NCBI RefSeq assembly: GCF_004104055.1
Contig: NZ_QOVJ01000002.1
Location: 496,001 to 560,000 of the forward strand
Direction: 5' to 3'
Source of the DNA: Leeuwenhoekiella aestuarii
GTDB taxonomy: Bacteria > Bacteroidota > Bacteroidia > Flavobacteriales > Flavobacteriaceae
DNA: 64,000 bases
A model generated the notes under the pieces. It saw nothing but the letters and a program-made list of their open reading frames with translations. It had not been told where the DNA came from and did no database searches. Position 1 is the stretch's first letter. Each line of letters opens with the position of its first letter. Made by a program: the position numbers and the translations under genes. Shown one piece after another: positions 25,542 through 39,800 of the stretch.

Positions 25542-27386
25542 ATGAAGAACCTTAAAAGATGCATTGTCCTAATGCTATTGTTTGTTGTTTGTTCCATACA
25601 GGCGCAGACTGAAGAATATGTAAGAGCACATTACGACAAGAAAGAAGTAATGATAGAAATGCGTGATGGTGTCTCTTTGCATACCACTATTTATTCTCCA
25701 AAAGATAAAACTCAGGAGTATCCTATTTTAATGATGCGTACGCCATACAGTTGCGCACCTTATGGAGAAGATAATTTTAAAGGCAGAATAGGCCCTAACC
25801 AGTTTATGGTTGAAGAGGGAAATATTTTTGTACAACAGGATGTGCGTGGTCGCTGGAATAGTGAGGGCGTTTACGATAATATGCGCGCTTATATTCCTAA
25901 TAAAAAAGGAAAACAAGTTGACGAGGCTAGTGACACCTATGATACGATTGACTGGTTAGTTAAAAACGTAATTAACAATAACGGAAATGTAGGAACCTGG
26001 GGAATTTCATACCCTGGTTTTTATGCGACCTATTCGTTGTTAAGTGAGCACCCGGCATTAAAGGCAGTATCTCCGCAAGCGTGTATTTCAGATTTCTTTT
26101 TTGATGATTTTCATCATAATGGTGCATTTTTAGAAAGCTATTGGAGAGCTATTTCGCTTTTTGGTTATCTGAAAGACAAACCGGTGACCAAGCCGTGGTA
26201 TGCATTTCCTGATTTGCCTAGTGAAGATCAATATCAGTTTTTTTTAGATGCAGGTCCGTTGACTAATCTTGATGCGTATTATAAAGAAGATAACGTGTTC
26301 TGGCAGCAGATAAAAGACCATCCTAATTATGATGAATTCTGGAGAAGCCGTGGTATTATTCAGCATTTAAAAGATATCAAACCGGCAGTGATGGTTGTAG
26401 GTGGCTTATTTGATGCAGAAGATTTATACGGTCCCTTTAACACCTACAGAAAGATAGAAGAGACTAGTGATAATTACAATATTTTAGTTTACGGTCCATG
26501 GAGTCATGGCGATTGGGCGCGTTCTAGTGAGCGTCAAGCGATAGGAAATGTATATTTTGGAGACCATCTTTCTAGAGATTTTCAAAAGGATTATGAGACT
26601 AAGTTTTTCAATCATTTTCTAAAAAACAATGGTAAGGGTGCTATTGATTTCCCTGAAGCGTCAATGTATGACAGTGGCTCTCGAGAGTGGGATAGCTATG
26701 CACAATGGCCTCCAAAAGCTGCTGAAACTAAAACTTTTTATTTAGGCGAAAACCAAATGCTTACCGAAACAGCTTCGGCAGATTATGCAAATGCATTTGT
26801 GAGTGACCCCTCTAAACCGGTTCCGTATTCAGAAGATATAAAAATGGTGTTTACACCTCGAAAATATATGACCGATGATCAGCGTTTTGCTGCCAGAAGA
26901 CCAGACGTTTTAGTTTATGAAACCGAAGTGTTATCCGAAGATATGACTCTAAGCGGAGAAATACTGGCAACACTGCAAGTGGCTACAACAGGTACTGCTG
27001 CAGACTGGGTCGTAAAAGTGATTGATGTATATCCTCCTGACGCTGAAGATTTCCCAGAAACTCAAAAGTATCTTAAAATGGGAAATTACCATATGATGGT
27101 GCGTAGTGAAGTAATGCGGGGGCGTTTTCGGGAAAGTTTCAGTGAACCTAAAGCCTTTGAAGCTAACAAGAAAACCGAAGTTGCTCTAACCCTACAAGGT
27201 GTGAATCACACGTTTTTAAAAGGACATAAACTTCAGATACAGATTCAAAGCACGTGGTTTCCCTTAATAGATCGAAATCCACAGACATTTGTTCCTAATA
27301 TTTATAAAGCTAGAGCAGAAGATTTTACTAAACAGACGCATACGGTTTTTGGTGATTCAGAAATTCAGTTTAGTGTTTTAAAATAA
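25542..27386 (+). CDS. CocE/NonD family (peptidase S15) hydrolase
   Basis: A 614-residue secreted alpha/beta hydrolase with a signal peptide ending at IQAQ. The nucleophile serine is in WGISYPGF (about residue 145), GGLFDAEDLYGP near 290 carries the acid residue, and YGPWSHGDW near 325 the histidine. The C-terminal beta-jelly-roll domain (about 380-600) is that of the X-Pro dipeptidyl peptidase / cocaine esterase / alpha-amino acid ester hydrolase group. Its length fits alpha-amino acid ester hydrolases, but glutaryl-acylase or peptidase activity is equally possible. It is 9 bases upstream of the DUF885 peptidase gene, suggesting a peptide-degrading pair. Confidence 0.9.
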   Translation: MKNLKRCIVLMLLFVVCSIQAQTEEYVRAHYDKKEVMIEMRDGVSLHTTIYSPKDKTQEYPILMMRTPYSCAPYGEDNFKGRIGPNQFMVEEGNIFVQQDVRGRWNSEGVYDNMRAYIPNKKGKQVDEASDTYDTIDWLVKNVINNNGNVGTWGISYPGFYATYSLLSEHPALKAVSPQACISDFFFDDFHHNGAFLESYWRAISLFGYLKDKPVTKPWYAFPDLPSEDQYQFFLDAGPLTNLDAYYKEDNVFWQQIKDHPNYDEFWRSRGIIQHLKDIKPAVMVVGGLFDAEDLYGPFNTYRKIEETSDNYNILVYGPWSHGDWARSSERQAIGNVYFGDHLSRDFQKDYETKFFNHFLKNNGKGAIDFPEASMYDSGSREWDSYAQWPPKAAETKTFYLGENQMLTETASADYANAFVSDPSKPVPYSEDIKMVFTPRKYMTDDQRFAARRPDVLVYETEVLSEDMTLSGEILATLQVATTGTAADWVVKVIDVYPPDAEDFPETQKYLKMGNYHMMVRSEVMRGRFRESFSEPKAFEANKKTEVALTLQGVNHTFLKGHKLQIQIQSTWFPLIDRNPQTFVPNIYKARAEDFTKQTHTVFGDSEIQFSVLK

Positions 27387-29964: not shown

Positions 29965-31317
29965 GTGAAGCTCAATCTTAAAAATCCTGTTAAACGTTCA
30001 GCCATTAATAAGCAATTTCATATTGCTAATGCCGAAAATTACCGGCTTTTAATTCTCGCTTTTGGTATTGGTAGTATTGTAGGAATATTGGGATCAGGCT
30101 TTAGACTTATTCTAGTGTATCTGGAAAATTATCGTAAAGTCATACAGATAAGTGCCCAAGCCGGAAACATACTACCTATTTGTTTTATAGTATTGGGTGC
30201 CGTTTGCGCCATTGCTTTATCCCTTTACTTAATTAAAAAATATGCTCCTGAGGCTTCCGGTAGTGGAATACAGGAAATTGAAGGTGCGTTGGATAACGTG
30301 AGACCTGTTCGTTGGAAGCGGGTAATTCCCATAAAGTTTATCGCTTCTATATTGAGTTTGGGAAGTGGTCTTTTATTAGGCAGGGAAGGACCTACCATTC
30401 AAATAGGCGCTAATATTGGCAGAATGGTCAAAGACCTGACCCGACAACCTGATGTTGAAGATAATTCACTTATTTCAGCTGGAGCTTCAGCAGGTCTTTC
30501 TGTGGCTTTTAATGCGCCCTTATCAGGTATCCTATTTGTGATTGAAGAAATGCATGAGCATTTTAAATTCACGTTTTTTTCGGTTGCAACTATAATGATA
30601 GGAGCGGGAACAGGAGATTTTGTAAGTCGCTTGATTTTAGGAGACAATCCAGAGTTTGTGCTTCAATCCTTTGCTGCTCCACTTTTAAAAGAATACTGGT
30701 TGTTTAGTGTATTAGGTATTGTTTTTGGTATTATAGGGCTGGTTTTTAATAAAATGCTGATCTCAAGTATGAATTTTGTGCAGCATTATCTAAAGTCTAG
30801 AATACTACCAGTTGCGCTAATCTCCGGATTATTGATTGCAGGTGTAGGTATTTTATATCCTCAATTAATAGGTGGTGGCTATGATTTGATAAATTCAGTT
30901 TTTACAGATAGCCCGGGTCTTGTCGTTTTATTTTTTTTATTTAGCATACGTTTTTTACTGTCAATATTTAGTTACAGTACAGGAACTTCTGGTGGAATAT
31001 TTCTTCCGCTACTCACACTGGGCGCATTACTGGGAATGCTTTTGGGTATTGGTTTTAACACGCTGTTTCCTGATTTAGGCATTAACCCTTTAAGTTTTGC
31101 TATTGCGGGTATGGCAGCTATTTTTGCAGCAACCCTAAGAGCACCGTTAACCGGTTTAGTTCTGGCAGTAGAAATGACAGCAAATTATGGGATGATGCTT
31201 CCTTTGATCATAACGAGCGTTTCTGCCTCTATAATCACCGTTTTAGTAGGAAATGAACCTTTATATGCCACATTGTTAAGAAGGATCTTAACGAATAGTG
31301 CAGCAGATAAGCTATAA
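29965..31317 (+). CDS. CLC family chloride/proton antiporter
   Basis: A 450-residue membrane protein with the CLC pattern: GSGIQEIEGAL near residue 93 (anion-binding serine; E. coli ClcA has proline where Q stands here), GREGP near 139 with the gating glutamate, VIEEMHEH near 192 with the internal proton glutamate, and GIFLP near 345. Both glutamates argue for a Cl-/H+ antiporter, not a channel. No CBS domains are present. Translation starts at GTG 29965; no ATG in frame upstream is closer to the family start. Confidence 0.93.
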   Translation: MKLNLKNPVKRSAINKQFHIANAENYRLLILAFGIGSIVGILGSGFRLILVYLENYRKVIQISAQAGNILPICFIVLGAVCAIALSLYLIKKYAPEASGSGIQEIEGALDNVRPVRWKRVIPIKFIASILSLGSGLLLGREGPTIQIGANIGRMVKDLTRQPDVEDNSLISAGASAGLSVAFNAPLSGILFVIEEMHEHFKFTFFSVATIMIGAGTGDFVSRLILGDNPEFVLQSFAAPLLKEYWLFSVLGIVFGIIGLVFNKMLISSMNFVQHYLKSRILPVALISGLLIAGVGILYPQLIGGGYDLINSVFTDSPGLVVLFFLFSIRFLLSIFSYSTGTSGGIFLPLLTLGALLGMLLGIGFNTLFPDLGINPLSFAIAGMAAIFAATLRAPLTGLVLAVEMTANYGMMLPLIITSVSASIITVLVGNEPLYATLLRRILTNSAADKL

Positions 31318-31339
31318 ATCGACAGGTAACAAAAGGGTT

Positions 31340-31387
31340 AAAAAAGAAAAACACCTTGCTCGCGCAAAGTGCCTTTCACCCCTAAAT
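31340..31387 (-). ncRNA. Structured RNA-like element, copy 1, ending in a terminator hairpin
   Basis: On the minus strand this 48-base unit reads ATTTAGGGGTGAAAGG, then a hairpin CACTTTGC-GCGA-GCAAGGTG with a GNRA tetraloop, then TTTTTCTTTTTT. It is a good Rho-independent terminator, but no minus-strand gene precedes it. The pair at stem position 4 is G-U on the minus strand and would be a C-A mismatch on the plus strand, which points to the minus strand as the transcribed one. A TAGCTTTA octamer (-7-like) lies 14 bases upstream of the unit on that strand. A short sRNA is the favoured reading. Confidence 0.55.
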
Positions 31388-31486
31388 TGTCAATGACATT
31401 GTAAAGCTACAAAATAATTTTACAATTCATTATGTTAATTTTATACTAAATCGTTTTAAGATTTTTCAATTTCTTACAAAATATCT

Positions 31487-31534
31487 AAAAAAGAAAAACA
31501 CCCTGCTCACGCAGAGTGCCTTTCACCCCTAAAT
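31487..31534 (-). ncRNA. Structured RNA-like element, copy 2, ending in a terminator hairpin
   Basis: This copy lies 147 bases from copy 1 and differs from it at three of 48 positions. Two changes are compensatory (a U-A stem pair becomes C-G, hairpin CACTCTGC-GTGA-GCAGGGTG) and the third keeps the loop of GNRA type. The upstream ATTTAGGGGTGAAAGG and the U-rich tail are identical. The flanking sequences between copies are unrelated, so only the structured core has been kept. A TATATTTT octamer lies 13 bases upstream on the minus strand. The function is unknown. Confidence 0.55.
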
Positions 31535-31683
31535 CATTAATACGTTTAAAATATAATTCCCCTAATAATTAGAAATTAAACGGTATCAATCATTGATTAA
31601 TACAAGATAAAATTACTTATAAACTTCTATGTTATAAAGGGGAAAAACACCCGTTTTACAAATAACTTGATTTAATCGTTTTA

Positions 31684-31700
31684 ATTTGCTAAACGCAAAT
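31684..31700. repeat. Short inverted repeat upstream of the GH13 operon
   Basis: ATTTGC (31684-31689) and GCAAAT (31695-31700) flank five bases just before the TTG start at 31712. It could be an operator for a carbohydrate regulator or a weak leader hairpin; no regulator gene lies nearby. Confidence 0.35.
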
Positions 31701-31711
31701 GTTGATGTATC

Positions 31712-33556
31712 TTGAGAACGTTTGTTATCAATAACCTGAAGCATTTGAAAGCTAGTCATGTCTTAAAAAGAGTTGAGCCCCCGCACTGGTGGGCTGGTAT
31801 GTACATAAAAAAGCTTCAACTGCTTTTTTATGGCGACCGTATTTCAGAATATAATATTACCTGTTCATCTGATCTGAATATACTACAGGTCGAGAAGACT
31901 CAAAATTCCAATTATCTTTTTGTGACTCTTGATACCTCAGAAGTTCAAGCAGGAATGTATTTTTTTAAATTTCAAAAAGAGAATTTTCCAGAATTTACAA
32001 TTTTCTATGCGTTTAAATCAAGAGTTGAAGATTCAGCAAACAGAATAAGTTTTGATAGTTCTGATGTTTTTTACCTTTTGATGCCAGACCGTTTTGCTCA
32101 TGCAAATCCGTTGATCAATTCAGTTAAGCAACTTTCTGAAAAAGCTAATCCGTACGATCTTAATGGAAGACACGGTGGAGATATTCTGGGGATAATTAAT
32201 AATCTCGATTATTTAAAAGATTTAGGAATTACTACGTTGTGGTGTACACCTTTGTGCGAAAATAATAGTGCCACTGGTTCGTATCACGGATATGCACAAA
32301 CAGATGTTTATAAAATAGACGCACGTCTGGGTACTTTAGAAGATTATAAAAGACTTTCTCATGAGCTTCACGGGCGAAATATGAAATTAGTAATAGATTA
32401 TGTTATCAATCATTGGGGTAGTGAGCACTGGCTTATTAAAGATATGCCTAATGATGGTTGGCTAAACCAATGGGAGCATTTCACTAATACAACTCACAAA
32501 ACGACAACGCTTATTGATATGAATGCATCGGTATTTGATAAGGAACAGCATGAAAAAGGCTGGTTTGTATCTACAATGCCAGATCTCAATCAGCAAAATC
32601 CTTTAGTTTTAAATTACCTCATTCAGAATGCGATCTGGTGGATAGAAGAAGTAGGTTTAGACGGAGTTCGCGTGGATACCTTCACCTATAACGACAAAGA
32701 AGCGGCTGTAAAATGGCTGCTGGCCATTAAATCGGAATACCCTAACCTCAACATTGCAGGTGAAGTATGGCTGCATAATTCAGCTCAGCTTGCTTATTGG
32801 CAAAAAGACAGTAAAATAGGCCAAATGGCAAAGTATAATTCTCAATTACCATGTCTCACAGATTTTCCGTTACACAACGCACTTCAGGATATTTTTTATA
32901 TAAAACATAAAAAAGTAAAAGGCTTAGAGAGTTTATACGAGACTTTTGTAAATGACTTTTTTTATCCCAGTCCGCATAATTTGATGCGTTTTATAGAAAA
33001 CCACGATACACAGCGTTTTAATACGCAAAGTGGTGGTGATCTCAATGCTTATAAACTGGCATTGACTGTTATTTGCACCACTAGGGGAATTCCACAGTTA
33101 TATTACGGTAGCGAGATCGGGATGCAAGGCGACAAGAATAATGGAGATGGCGACATACGACACGAATTTCCCGGAGGTTGGAAGCAGCATAAGCAAAATG
33201 CATTTTTGCCTTCAACAGCTAAAAATGGCCGCAATGCCTACCAAGAACGTTTTCATGCTTTCACTAAAAAACTTTTAAATTGGCGGAAAGATAAACCAGT
33301 AGTACATTATGGTAAATTTTTACATTTTGTTCCTGTTGATAATGTGTATGTTTATTTTAGGTATCTAAAGGAAGAAAAACGGGTTATGGTAATTATAAAT
33401 AACGCGAAGACAAAAAAAATACTAGCATTACAAAAATTTGCAGAAGGTTTAAACGGAAGTAAAGCAGGAAATGAGATTTTGTCAAACCAAGTATTAGATT
33501 TATCAATAAAATTGTCTGTACCTGCCAGAACTCCATATATTATAGAACTAACCTAA
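31712..33556 (+). CDS. GH13 alpha-amylase/cyclomaltodextrinase-like enzyme
   Basis: A 614-residue glycoside hydrolase. It begins with a cyclomaltodextrinase-type N-terminal domain (VEPPHWWAGM at about residue 21) as in SusA-like enzymes, then a GH13 barrel with the nucleophile in GVRVDTF (about 325), the acid/base in IAGEVWL (about 352) and the third acid in ENHDTQRF (about 432). It should cleave alpha-1,4 links of maltodextrins or cyclodextrins. The frame starts at TTG 31712; an upstream stop prevents extension. Unlike most SusA-like relatives it shows no signal peptide, suggesting cytoplasmic action or a mis-set 5' end. It is one base upstream of the second GH13 gene. Confidence 0.9.
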   Translation: MRTFVINNLKHLKASHVLKRVEPPHWWAGMYIKKLQLLFYGDRISEYNITCSSDLNILQVEKTQNSNYLFVTLDTSEVQAGMYFFKFQKENFPEFTIFYAFKSRVEDSANRISFDSSDVFYLLMPDRFAHANPLINSVKQLSEKANPYDLNGRHGGDILGIINNLDYLKDLGITTLWCTPLCENNSATGSYHGYAQTDVYKIDARLGTLEDYKRLSHELHGRNMKLVIDYVINHWGSEHWLIKDMPNDGWLNQWEHFTNTTHKTTTLIDMNASVFDKEQHEKGWFVSTMPDLNQQNPLVLNYLIQNAIWWIEEVGLDGVRVDTFTYNDKEAAVKWLLAIKSEYPNLNIAGEVWLHNSAQLAYWQKDSKIGQMAKYNSQLPCLTDFPLHNALQDIFYIKHKKVKGLESLYETFVNDFFYPSPHNLMRFIENHDTQRFNTQSGGDLNAYKLALTVICTTRGIPQLYYGSEIGMQGDKNNGDGDIRHEFPGGWKQHKQNAFLPSTAKNGRNAYQERFHAFTKKLLNWRKDKPVVHYGKFLHFVPVDNVYVYFRYLKEEKRVMVIINNAKTKKILALQKFAEGLNGSKAGNEILSNQVLDLSIKLSVPARTPYIIELT

Positions 33557-38261: not shown

Positions 38262-39800
38262 ATGCTTACAAAGGTTTATGGCTCAGCGGTTTTTGGCGTT
38301 GAAGCATCTACGATTACTATCGAAGTTAATATTGACAAAGGCATTGGTTATCATCTTGTAGGATTGCCTGATAATGCGATTCGGGAAAGCAATTACCGTA
38401 TTGCCGCTGCACTTCAAAACAACGGATTTAAAATTCCCGGAAAGAAAATTACACTCAATATGGCTCCTGCAGATTTACGCAAGGAGGGAAGTGCTTATGA
38501 TCTCACCCTTGCAATTGGAATTCTAGCAGCCAGCGGACAAATTAAGGCTGAGAATCTGGATGAGTATATCATTATGGGCGAACTCTCTCTAGATGGGAGT
38601 CTGCAGCCTATTCGGGGCGCTTTGCCCATAGCAATAAAAGCTCAGCAAGAAGGTTTTAAAAAATTTCTATTACCTAGTCAGAATGCTCGAGAAGCCGCTA
38701 TTGTAAAAGATCTGGAGGTTTACGCGATTGATAGTATTGCACAAGTCATTGATCACTTTGATAATGATGCGGAACTCGAGCGTACGATTGTAGATACGCG
38801 AACTGAATTTTTCAATGCCTTAGAGCATCCGGAGTTTGATTTTGCCGATGTAAAGGGTCAGGAATCTATCAAACGCTGTATGGAAATTGCCGCTGCTGGT
38901 GGTCATAATATCATATTAATAGGTCCACCTGGTGCAGGAAAAACCATGCTAGCAAAGCGCCTGCCGTCTATACTACCGCCAATGACCTTAAGAGAAGCCT
39001 TAGAAACTACTAAGATACACAGCGTTTCGGGTAGAATGCGCGAACATGTGGGATTAATGGCACAACGGCCATTTCGCAGTCCACATCACACCATCTCTGA
39101 CGTCGCGTTAGTTGGCGGCGGTGCCTATCCACAGCCGGGAGAAATCTCACTGGCTCATAATGGCGTATTGTTTTTAGACGAGTTGCCCGAATTTAAGCGT
39201 ACCGTGCTCGAAGTAATGCGCCAGCCTTTGGAAGACCGGGAAGTAACCATTTCAAGAGCCAAATTTACAGTGACCTATCCCAGTAGTTTTATGCTGGTCG
39301 CCAGTATGAATCCCAGTCCCGGAGGCTATTTTAATGATCCCGGTGCTCCCGTGACCAGTACTCCCGCAGAAATGCAACGCTATCTGAGTAAAGTTTCCGG
39401 TCCGTTATTAGATCGTATAGACATTCACATAGAAGTTACACCTGTTCCGTTTGATAAATTGTCTGATGAACACAAAGCAGAAAGCAGCATTGCAATACGC
39501 AAACGCGTTACCGAAGCCCGAAAATTGCAAACAGAACGTTTTCGAGAAAGCGAAAACATTCATTATAATGCACAAATGAGCGTAAAACAAATAAGAAAGC
39601 ATTGTGCATTAGATTCTGGTTCTAAAGAGCTATTGAAAAACGCTATGGAAAAACTGAACCTTTCCGCAAGAGCGTATGATCGTATTTTAAAAGTATCCAG
39701 AACAATAGCAGATCTGGAAGCTACATCTGATATTGAATCACACCACATTACCGAAGCGATTCAATATCGAAGTCTGGATCGTGATGGTTGGTTGGGGTGA
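38262..39800 (+). CDS. yifB: YifB/ComM family Mg-chelatase-like AAA+ ATPase
   Basis: A 512-residue protein with the N-terminal ChlI-type domain (about residues 1-165), an AAA+ domain with Walker A GPPGAGKTM near 227 and Walker B FLDELPEF near 305, and a C-terminal Mg-chelatase domain. ComM homologues are hexameric helicases that promote branch migration in natural transformation; bacteroidetal YifB is presumed to work in recombination. The last 81 codons (39558-39800) are repeated in decayed form at 40780-41022. Confidence 0.94.
   Translation: MLTKVYGSAVFGVEASTITIEVNIDKGIGYHLVGLPDNAIRESNYRIAAALQNNGFKIPGKKITLNMAPADLRKEGSAYDLTLAIGILAASGQIKAENLDEYIIMGELSLDGSLQPIRGALPIAIKAQQEGFKKFLLPSQNAREAAIVKDLEVYAIDSIAQVIDHFDNDAELERTIVDTRTEFFNALEHPEFDFADVKGQESIKRCMEIAAAGGHNIILIGPPGAGKTMLAKRLPSILPPMTLREALETTKIHSVSGRMREHVGLMAQRPFRSPHHTISDVALVGGGAYPQPGEISLAHNGVLFLDELPEFKRTVLEVMRQPLEDREVTISRAKFTVTYPSSFMLVASMNPSPGGYFNDPGAPVTSTPAEMQRYLSKVSGPLLDRIDIHIEVTPVPFDKLSDEHKAESSIAIRKRVTEARKLQTERFRESENIHYNAQMSVKQIRKHCALDSGSKELLKNAMEKLNLSARAYDRILKVSRTIADLEATSDIESHHITEAIQYRSLDRDGWLG
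39558..39800 (+). repeat. 3' end of yifB, intact partner of a diverged duplicate
   Basis: This 243-base stretch of the yifB 3' end matches 40780-41022 at roughly 88% identity, with one 1-base gap. The copies lie in the same orientation 1,222 bases apart and flank the Cys-motif membrane protein gene. Confidence 0.85.

Follow-up and report, generated by a model that had tools for sequence, protein, structure and literature searches.

Two tandem candidate small RNA genes with a nearly fixed motif in Leeuwenhoekiella and related flavobacteria

What are two nearly identical structured elements, lying in tandem between two genes of the opposite strand, likely to be in a flavobacterial genome? The question is raised by the window, a 64-kb stretch in contig C2 of the Leeuwenhoekiella aestuarii genome (G000 in the set used here). 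A first-pass annotation placed two 48-base units on its minus strand at 31340-31387 and 31487-31534, 147 bases from start to start, and these positions proved exact. The minus-strand readings of the units are TTTAGGGGTGAAAGGCACTTTGCGCGAGCAAGGTGTTTTTCTTTTTT and TTTAGGGGTGAAAGGCACTCTGCGTGAGCAGGGTGTTTTTCTTTTTT, each consisting of AUUUAGGGGU and a hairpin of 14 bp, which has GAAAGGCA / UGUUUUUC at its base and is followed by six U. The three differences between the units had been described correctly (a U-A stem pair replaced by C-G, hence two bases, and a loop changed from GCGA to GUGA), as had the presence of G-U pairs specific to the minus strand. The flanking genes, a ClC channel (29965-31317) and an alpha-amylase (31712-33556, or with a start at 31799), both lie on the plus strand. 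Within the window no ORF of at least 60 aa runs into the units on their own strand, as the annotation had it.

The reading favored here, which is held to be on balance probable, is that two small RNA genes, RNA-A and RNA-B, lie in tandem on the minus strand, each with a promoter of its own and each ending 3' in one of the units, and that they belong to a paralogous family of three genera whose motif pairs with mRNAs. The annotation had spoken of paired small RNAs not tied to a CDS, and that description is favored by tandem conservation in three genera and by stem pairs whose changes are compensated; further support comes from a promoter-like box ahead of each unit and from a window with no coding sequence leading into them.

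The extent of the two genes follows a conservation profile of ten Leeuwenhoekiella genomes, in which the loci were cut at the exact motif 12-mer and identity was taken per ten bases; G006, whose units lack the exact 12-mer used for cutting, was omitted from this alignment and profile. Outside the RNA blocks identity is 0.07-0.49 upstream of 31685 and 0.33-0.41 past 31335, and the spacer stands at 0.50-0.60 apart from a CGATTTAG block at 0.87. Each conserved block has a TAnnTTTA box at its start and ends just after the U tract. The DNA between the units, first described as unrelated, is not featureless: it holds the putative promoter and start of the second RNA as well as the conserved CGATTTAG block. 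The parts recognized, with transcription and RNA ends predicted from sequence, are these:

31488 to 31602, minus strand: RNA-A, predicted small RNA of about 115 nt with both ends predicted; TAnnTTTA box before it, hairpin and U tract at its end
31615 to 31486, minus strand: conserved block of RNA-A; mean pairwise identity 0.75-1.0 per 10 bases in ten Leeuwenhoekiella
31608 to 31615, minus strand: TAATTTTA, putative -7 promoter box of RNA-A; TAnnTTTA in 10/10 Leeuwenhoekiella aligned
31536 to 31590, minus strand: putative helix-closed 5' domain of RNA-A; 31590-31583 with 31543-31536 (AUUGAUAC / GUAUUAAU) in the minimum-energy fold of locus L001
31487 to 31542, minus strand: 3' module of RNA-A (AUUUAGGGGU, 14-bp hairpin, U tract); 78.1 bits with model R1, which this unit helped to build; pair counts; fold
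31341 to 31396, minus strand: RNA-B, predicted small RNA of about 56 nt with both ends predicted; TAnnTTTA box just ahead of it, hairpin plus U tract closing it
31415 to 31336, minus strand: conserved block of RNA-B; identity 0.71-1.0 per 10 bases in ten Leeuwenhoekiella
31402 to 31409, minus strand: TAGCTTTA, putative -7 promoter box of RNA-B; TAnnTTTA in 10/10 Leeuwenhoekiella aligned
31340 to 31395, minus strand: 3' module of RNA-B; 74.0 bits with R1, which this unit likewise helped to build; fold
31446 to 31453, minus strand: CGATTTAG box upstream of the RNA-B promoter; block 31455-31446 at identity 0.87, neighbors at 0.50-0.60
31671 to 31678, minus strand: CGATTAAA, a like box upstream of the RNA-A promoter, read by eye; weakly conserved (0.51-0.59)
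31639 to 31652, minus strand: short GGG...CCCC hairpin before the RNA-A promoter, in ten Leeuwenhoekiella and the second alignment; identity 0.77-0.93; probably a terminator or insulator

The TAnnTTTA box of RNA-A is also present in 10/10 sequences of the second alignment, and the boxes are near to the promoter consensus TAnnTTTG given in a published study (PMC9723704). Several members of Dokdonia, the genus of G232, carry TATATTTG before RNA-B, a box that L041 and L111 lack. A helix directly before the motif occurs in minimum-energy folds of RNA-A (L001, L076, L111, L114, L115) and of RNA-B (L031, L038, L041, L106, L111, L113), in neither case in all relatives, and these helices, read from the folds without pair counts, differ in sequence among relatives; the 5' part of RNA-B aligned poorly over eight sequences (alignment A2).

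How far the pair extends was first a matter of blastn against 40 genomes, in which both units are strong in the window's own genome and in nine relatives of the same genus, and G006 carries a diverged pair (E 9.8e-4 and 0.044). With R1, both units score at least 72 bits in 11 of the 13 Leeuwenhoekiella genomes, the window's own included; G007 and G012 had no pair by blastn (40 genomes) or by R1 (the 13 genomes of the genus). The family-wide search that the annotation had suggested was run with R1 over 397 genomes and gave matches of at least 55 bits only in G000, G009, G011, G232 and G216, the next match lying at 42.4 bits (stricter filter settings). In Dokdonia, a match at E up to 1e-6 is present in 16 of 18 genomes, and 13 of these 18 show a tandem of two; the single matches in G430, G431 and G435 all lie within 1.2 kb of a contig end. 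G428 has no match at E 1e-6 and retains a decayed copy (28.8 bits) after a CocE-like gene. G216, the sole genome of the third genus in the set, carries two units.

The tandem arrangement is conserved at loci that sequence comparison identifies as orthologous. Proteins homologous to those of the window lie at 28 of the 29 loci tested (24 genomes, some represented twice), L040 having none. At Leeuwenhoekiella loci the homologous neighbors include a CocE-like hydrolase (25542-27386; Pfam Peptidase_S15), DUF885, ClC, amylases or a Mg-chelatase-like gene (38262-39800), and at most Dokdonia loci the pair lies between CocE-like and Mg-chelatase-like genes; in G423, G434 and G436 a CocE-like gene flanks it on one side, and the opposite flank matches an amylase weakly. 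Genes between the pair and the shared neighbors vary among loci, and the shared neighborhood itself argues for vertical inheritance. The GGG...CCCC hairpin at 31639-31652 is kept in both genera despite differing neighbor genes.

On the minus strand the two units fold at -19.1 and -21.2 kcal/mol (z -4.9 and -5.2; 0/200 shuffles as good); the plus strand beats its shuffles too, more weakly (-9.3 and -11.4 kcal/mol; z -3.0 and -4.7; 0/200). Covariation was scored on alignment A1, 18 distinct units picked with a pattern demanding AGGGGTGAAAGGCA and TGTTTTTC; the unit patterns used for A1, for the folds and for the comparison of A and B stems pass over more deviant units. This picking pattern by itself makes the motif and the eight basal pairs of the 14-pair stem (144 of 252 cells) invariant in A1. 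The six variable stem pairs are paired in 108 of 108 cells, and with sequences that are related and hence not independent the covariation score of the whole structure is 0.398 vs 0.193 in shuffles (0/500 reach it), falling to at most 0.147 when the structure is slid. Cells changed on both sides number 29 vs 11.1 in shuffles (0/500). Two other counts do not exceed the shuffles: pairs that show a double change (5, reached in 111/500 shuffles) and further pair types (12, reached in 65/500). The stem is compensated as a whole, and the case for true constraint on the motif rests more on looser matching, outside A1: nearly all loosely matched units keep the motif, which is slightly altered in G434 and G438 and also in the second units of G423, G434 and G436. 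The GNRA loop noted at the outset holds as a feature of Leeuwenhoekiella, and is not kept in most Dokdonia units.

The pair is not the whole of the family. A third predicted RNA lies at G000:C1:282221 (L132, from 1503), where AUUUGGGGUGAAAG stands before a compensated hairpin and an upstream stretch of some 45 bases hardly differs between Leeuwenhoekiella and G232. It was read in 9 of 13 Leeuwenhoekiella genomes, G007 and G012 among them, as well as in G232 and G422, and match positions suggest it in the other four Leeuwenhoekiella genomes. A single genome thus carries several structured non-coding genes that have one core in common and differ in their flanks, as in a paralogous small RNA family. 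Repeats around AACGCTTCACTTCGG adjoin the third RNA gene in L070 and L073. Single extra copies of GGGGTGAAAG with the hairpin occur at other places, in L130 (G438) and in L087 (G222, of another genus), near 1511; among the 25 R1 loci listed from outside the clade, L087 is the one with GGGGTGAAAG, and the rest look like generic terminators. A search with the pattern GGGGTGAAAGN{8,36}YTTTCNTT found 18 of the 397 genomes, 12 of them other than G000, G009, G011, G232, G216 and G222; these 12 look like chance, since a reversed control matched nine genomes (some sites were read).

Within a genome, the variable stems of A and B are alike, with a mean score of 0.81 (21 genomes; identical in four) vs 0.60 between genomes, a likeness reached in 0/2000 permutations. 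This suggests concerted evolution of A and B, short of proof since close relatives are not independent. A broader proposal, possible but doubtful, is that AUUUNGGGGUGAAAG and the hairpin form a portable 3' module of otherwise unlike small RNAs in bacteria where Hfq and RRM proteins go undetected, a new docking or pairing platform that concerted evolution keeps alike where the genes are neighbors.

No family of Rfam 15 (4227 models) reached its gathering score in the window and eight loci. A lenient Rfam search of 31300-31750 gave nine matches, none of which came near its gathering score; the highest were BTnc231, with 25.0 of 80.4 bits (E 0.0046), and PyrR, with 24.1 of 54, and they rest largely on the terminator. 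A supposed likeness of GGGGUGAAAGGC to 23S rRNA was abandoned: the 12-mer occurs three times in the window's own assembly, a draft that may lack rRNA copies, twice in the pair and once in a place that does not look ribosomal. In the literature searched, no description of RNA-A or RNA-B was recognized.

Several known systems nevertheless invite comparison. Adjacent paralogous small RNA genes with a common core, like the present pair, are familiar from PrrF1/PrrF2 and AbcR1/AbcR2, which are proteobacterial and linked to Hfq, whereas Hfq (PF17209) was found here in 0/7 genomes (5/14 control genomes matched). Closer in phylogeny is Bacteroides thetaiotaomicron, a member of the same phylum as the present bacteria. 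FopS is described as a paralogous small RNA family of that species, for which an Rfam model was deposited; as in the present family, its several members join a conserved single-stranded segment to the hairpin of an intrinsic terminator (PMC11697453). FopS differs in having 14 members, whose seed lies in a 5' stretch, and in its association with the RRM protein RbpB (PMC11697453). The present family comprises a tandem pair of genes plus a third, its motif lies immediately ahead of the hairpin, and RRM_1 (PF00076) was found in 0/5 genomes, with 2/14 control genomes matched, one of them a Bacteroides. Compared by description, FopS is the nearest documented parallel found (PMC11697453), and by analogy with it trans-acting pairing would be the likeliest role. 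Rfp18 of Flavobacterium psychrophilum is likewise a conserved, independent flavobacterial small RNA with strong predicted structure and predicted mRNA targets; in its published description its pairing is predicted for the third stem-loop and its conservation is given for its genus (PMC9723704). RNA-A and RNA-B would make up a new family of a kind already known.

If the motif does pair with mRNAs, complementary sites might be in excess. In six genomes there are 139 TCACCCCNAA sites, of which 17 are the RNA genes themselves, vs 106 when the pattern is reversed; G216 (38 vs 15) and G001 (29 vs 13) account for the excess, and the other four genomes together have 72 vs 78. The sites analyzed were 61 of the 139, from these four genomes and including the third RNA gene (L251), the remainder being the 67 of G001 and G216 and 11 RNA genes. 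G000 and G008, two species of one genus, both carry GTCACCCCAAA 60 bases ahead of the start of a gene (L211/L228, near position 1000); the two genes are orthologous, with products 56.6% identical over 316 aa, and the gene preceding the site resembles a sigma factor by eye. This upstream site is a candidate target, or may as well be a promoter element. Sites inside coding sequence occur in two homologous gene pairs, antisense in L209/L223 and sense in L237/L252, and further sharing of sites consists of paralogue matches among L235, L236 and L247 and one weak pair, L204/L255.

Other accounts of the same elements have to be weighed. The least remarkable, that they are ordinary intrinsic terminators of flanking genes or short transcripts whose RNA has no role, draws on the hairpin and U tract of the window units, on the many generic terminators of the family that score 25-42 bits with R1, and on the apparent same-strand coding sequence upstream in some relatives (a CDS end read by eye in G002, G003, G004 and G008, beyond a separate conserved hairpin). 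It is nevertheless quite improbable, given that over 397 genomes the members stand at 55 bits or above and everything else at 42.4 or below, that conservation extends some 60-130 bases upstream of the U tract, and that in the window no minus-strand ORF of the length given above leads into the units. The hairpin followed by a U tract that defines an intrinsic terminator is, moreover, not found in the first unit of G216, G423, G434 and G436; there motif and hairpin persist although no U tail follows, and the hairpin is therefore more than a terminator. Somewhat less improbable, and still unlikely, is that the G-rich motif binds a protein or the ribosome and that the RNAs are sponges or decoys that pair with no mRNA. 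A motif common to RNAs with unlike 5' parts and complementary sites without clear excess both agree with this, and GGGGUGA can pair with the 16S 3' end, the motif forming a duplex of -11.1 kcal/mol with the 16S tail; but 65/1000 motif shuffles pair equally well with that tail, a full complement reaches -28.4, and no binding protein was identified.

Two further accounts have far less in their favor. A leader or attenuator of a downstream gene would be a structured RNA with a terminator, and there are weak matches to PyrR leaders, but these score 24.1 and 21.8 bits vs a gathering score of 54 (E 0.36 and 0.99). In the window, transcription of the units would run toward a convergent gene, and the matched window-homologous downstream neighbors in relatives are also on the opposite strand, though in some relatives unmatched genes may intervene; this account is highly improbable. 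It is scarcely credible that the units are a mobile-element repeat or a short plus-strand coding sequence (...NTLLAQSAFHP). Both copies can be read, by eye, as one short open frame whose two versions differ by a pair of silent changes and a single replacement, but unit length varies by single bases (57-60 with flanks), a variation that breaks such a frame. As to mobility, the window's own genome has two strong copies only, the neighborhood is constant over genera, and viral contigs gave no match; in phage records the matches were weak and at two places (E 0.2 and 0.7).

The small RNA pair therefore remains the preferred reading, and its working might be pictured as follows. Each RNA would begin with a 5' part of its own, continue into a single-stranded AUUUAGGGGU, and close with the hairpin on its base GAAAGGCA / UGUUUUUC. 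In Leeuwenhoekiella the hairpin probably ends transcription, because a U tract comes after it. The exposed AUUUAGGGGU would suit pairing with ACCCCUAAAU, and the G-rich stretch is most likely a common pairing site for several mRNAs, to which the 5' part of each RNA may add specificity or control. If this is true, marine flavobacteria in which neither Hfq nor RRM_1 is detected would possess a conserved small RNA family, and the pair, the separate third member, the two genomes that lack the pair (G007 and G012) and the decayed copy of G428 would together offer a compact system for finding its targets and partners.
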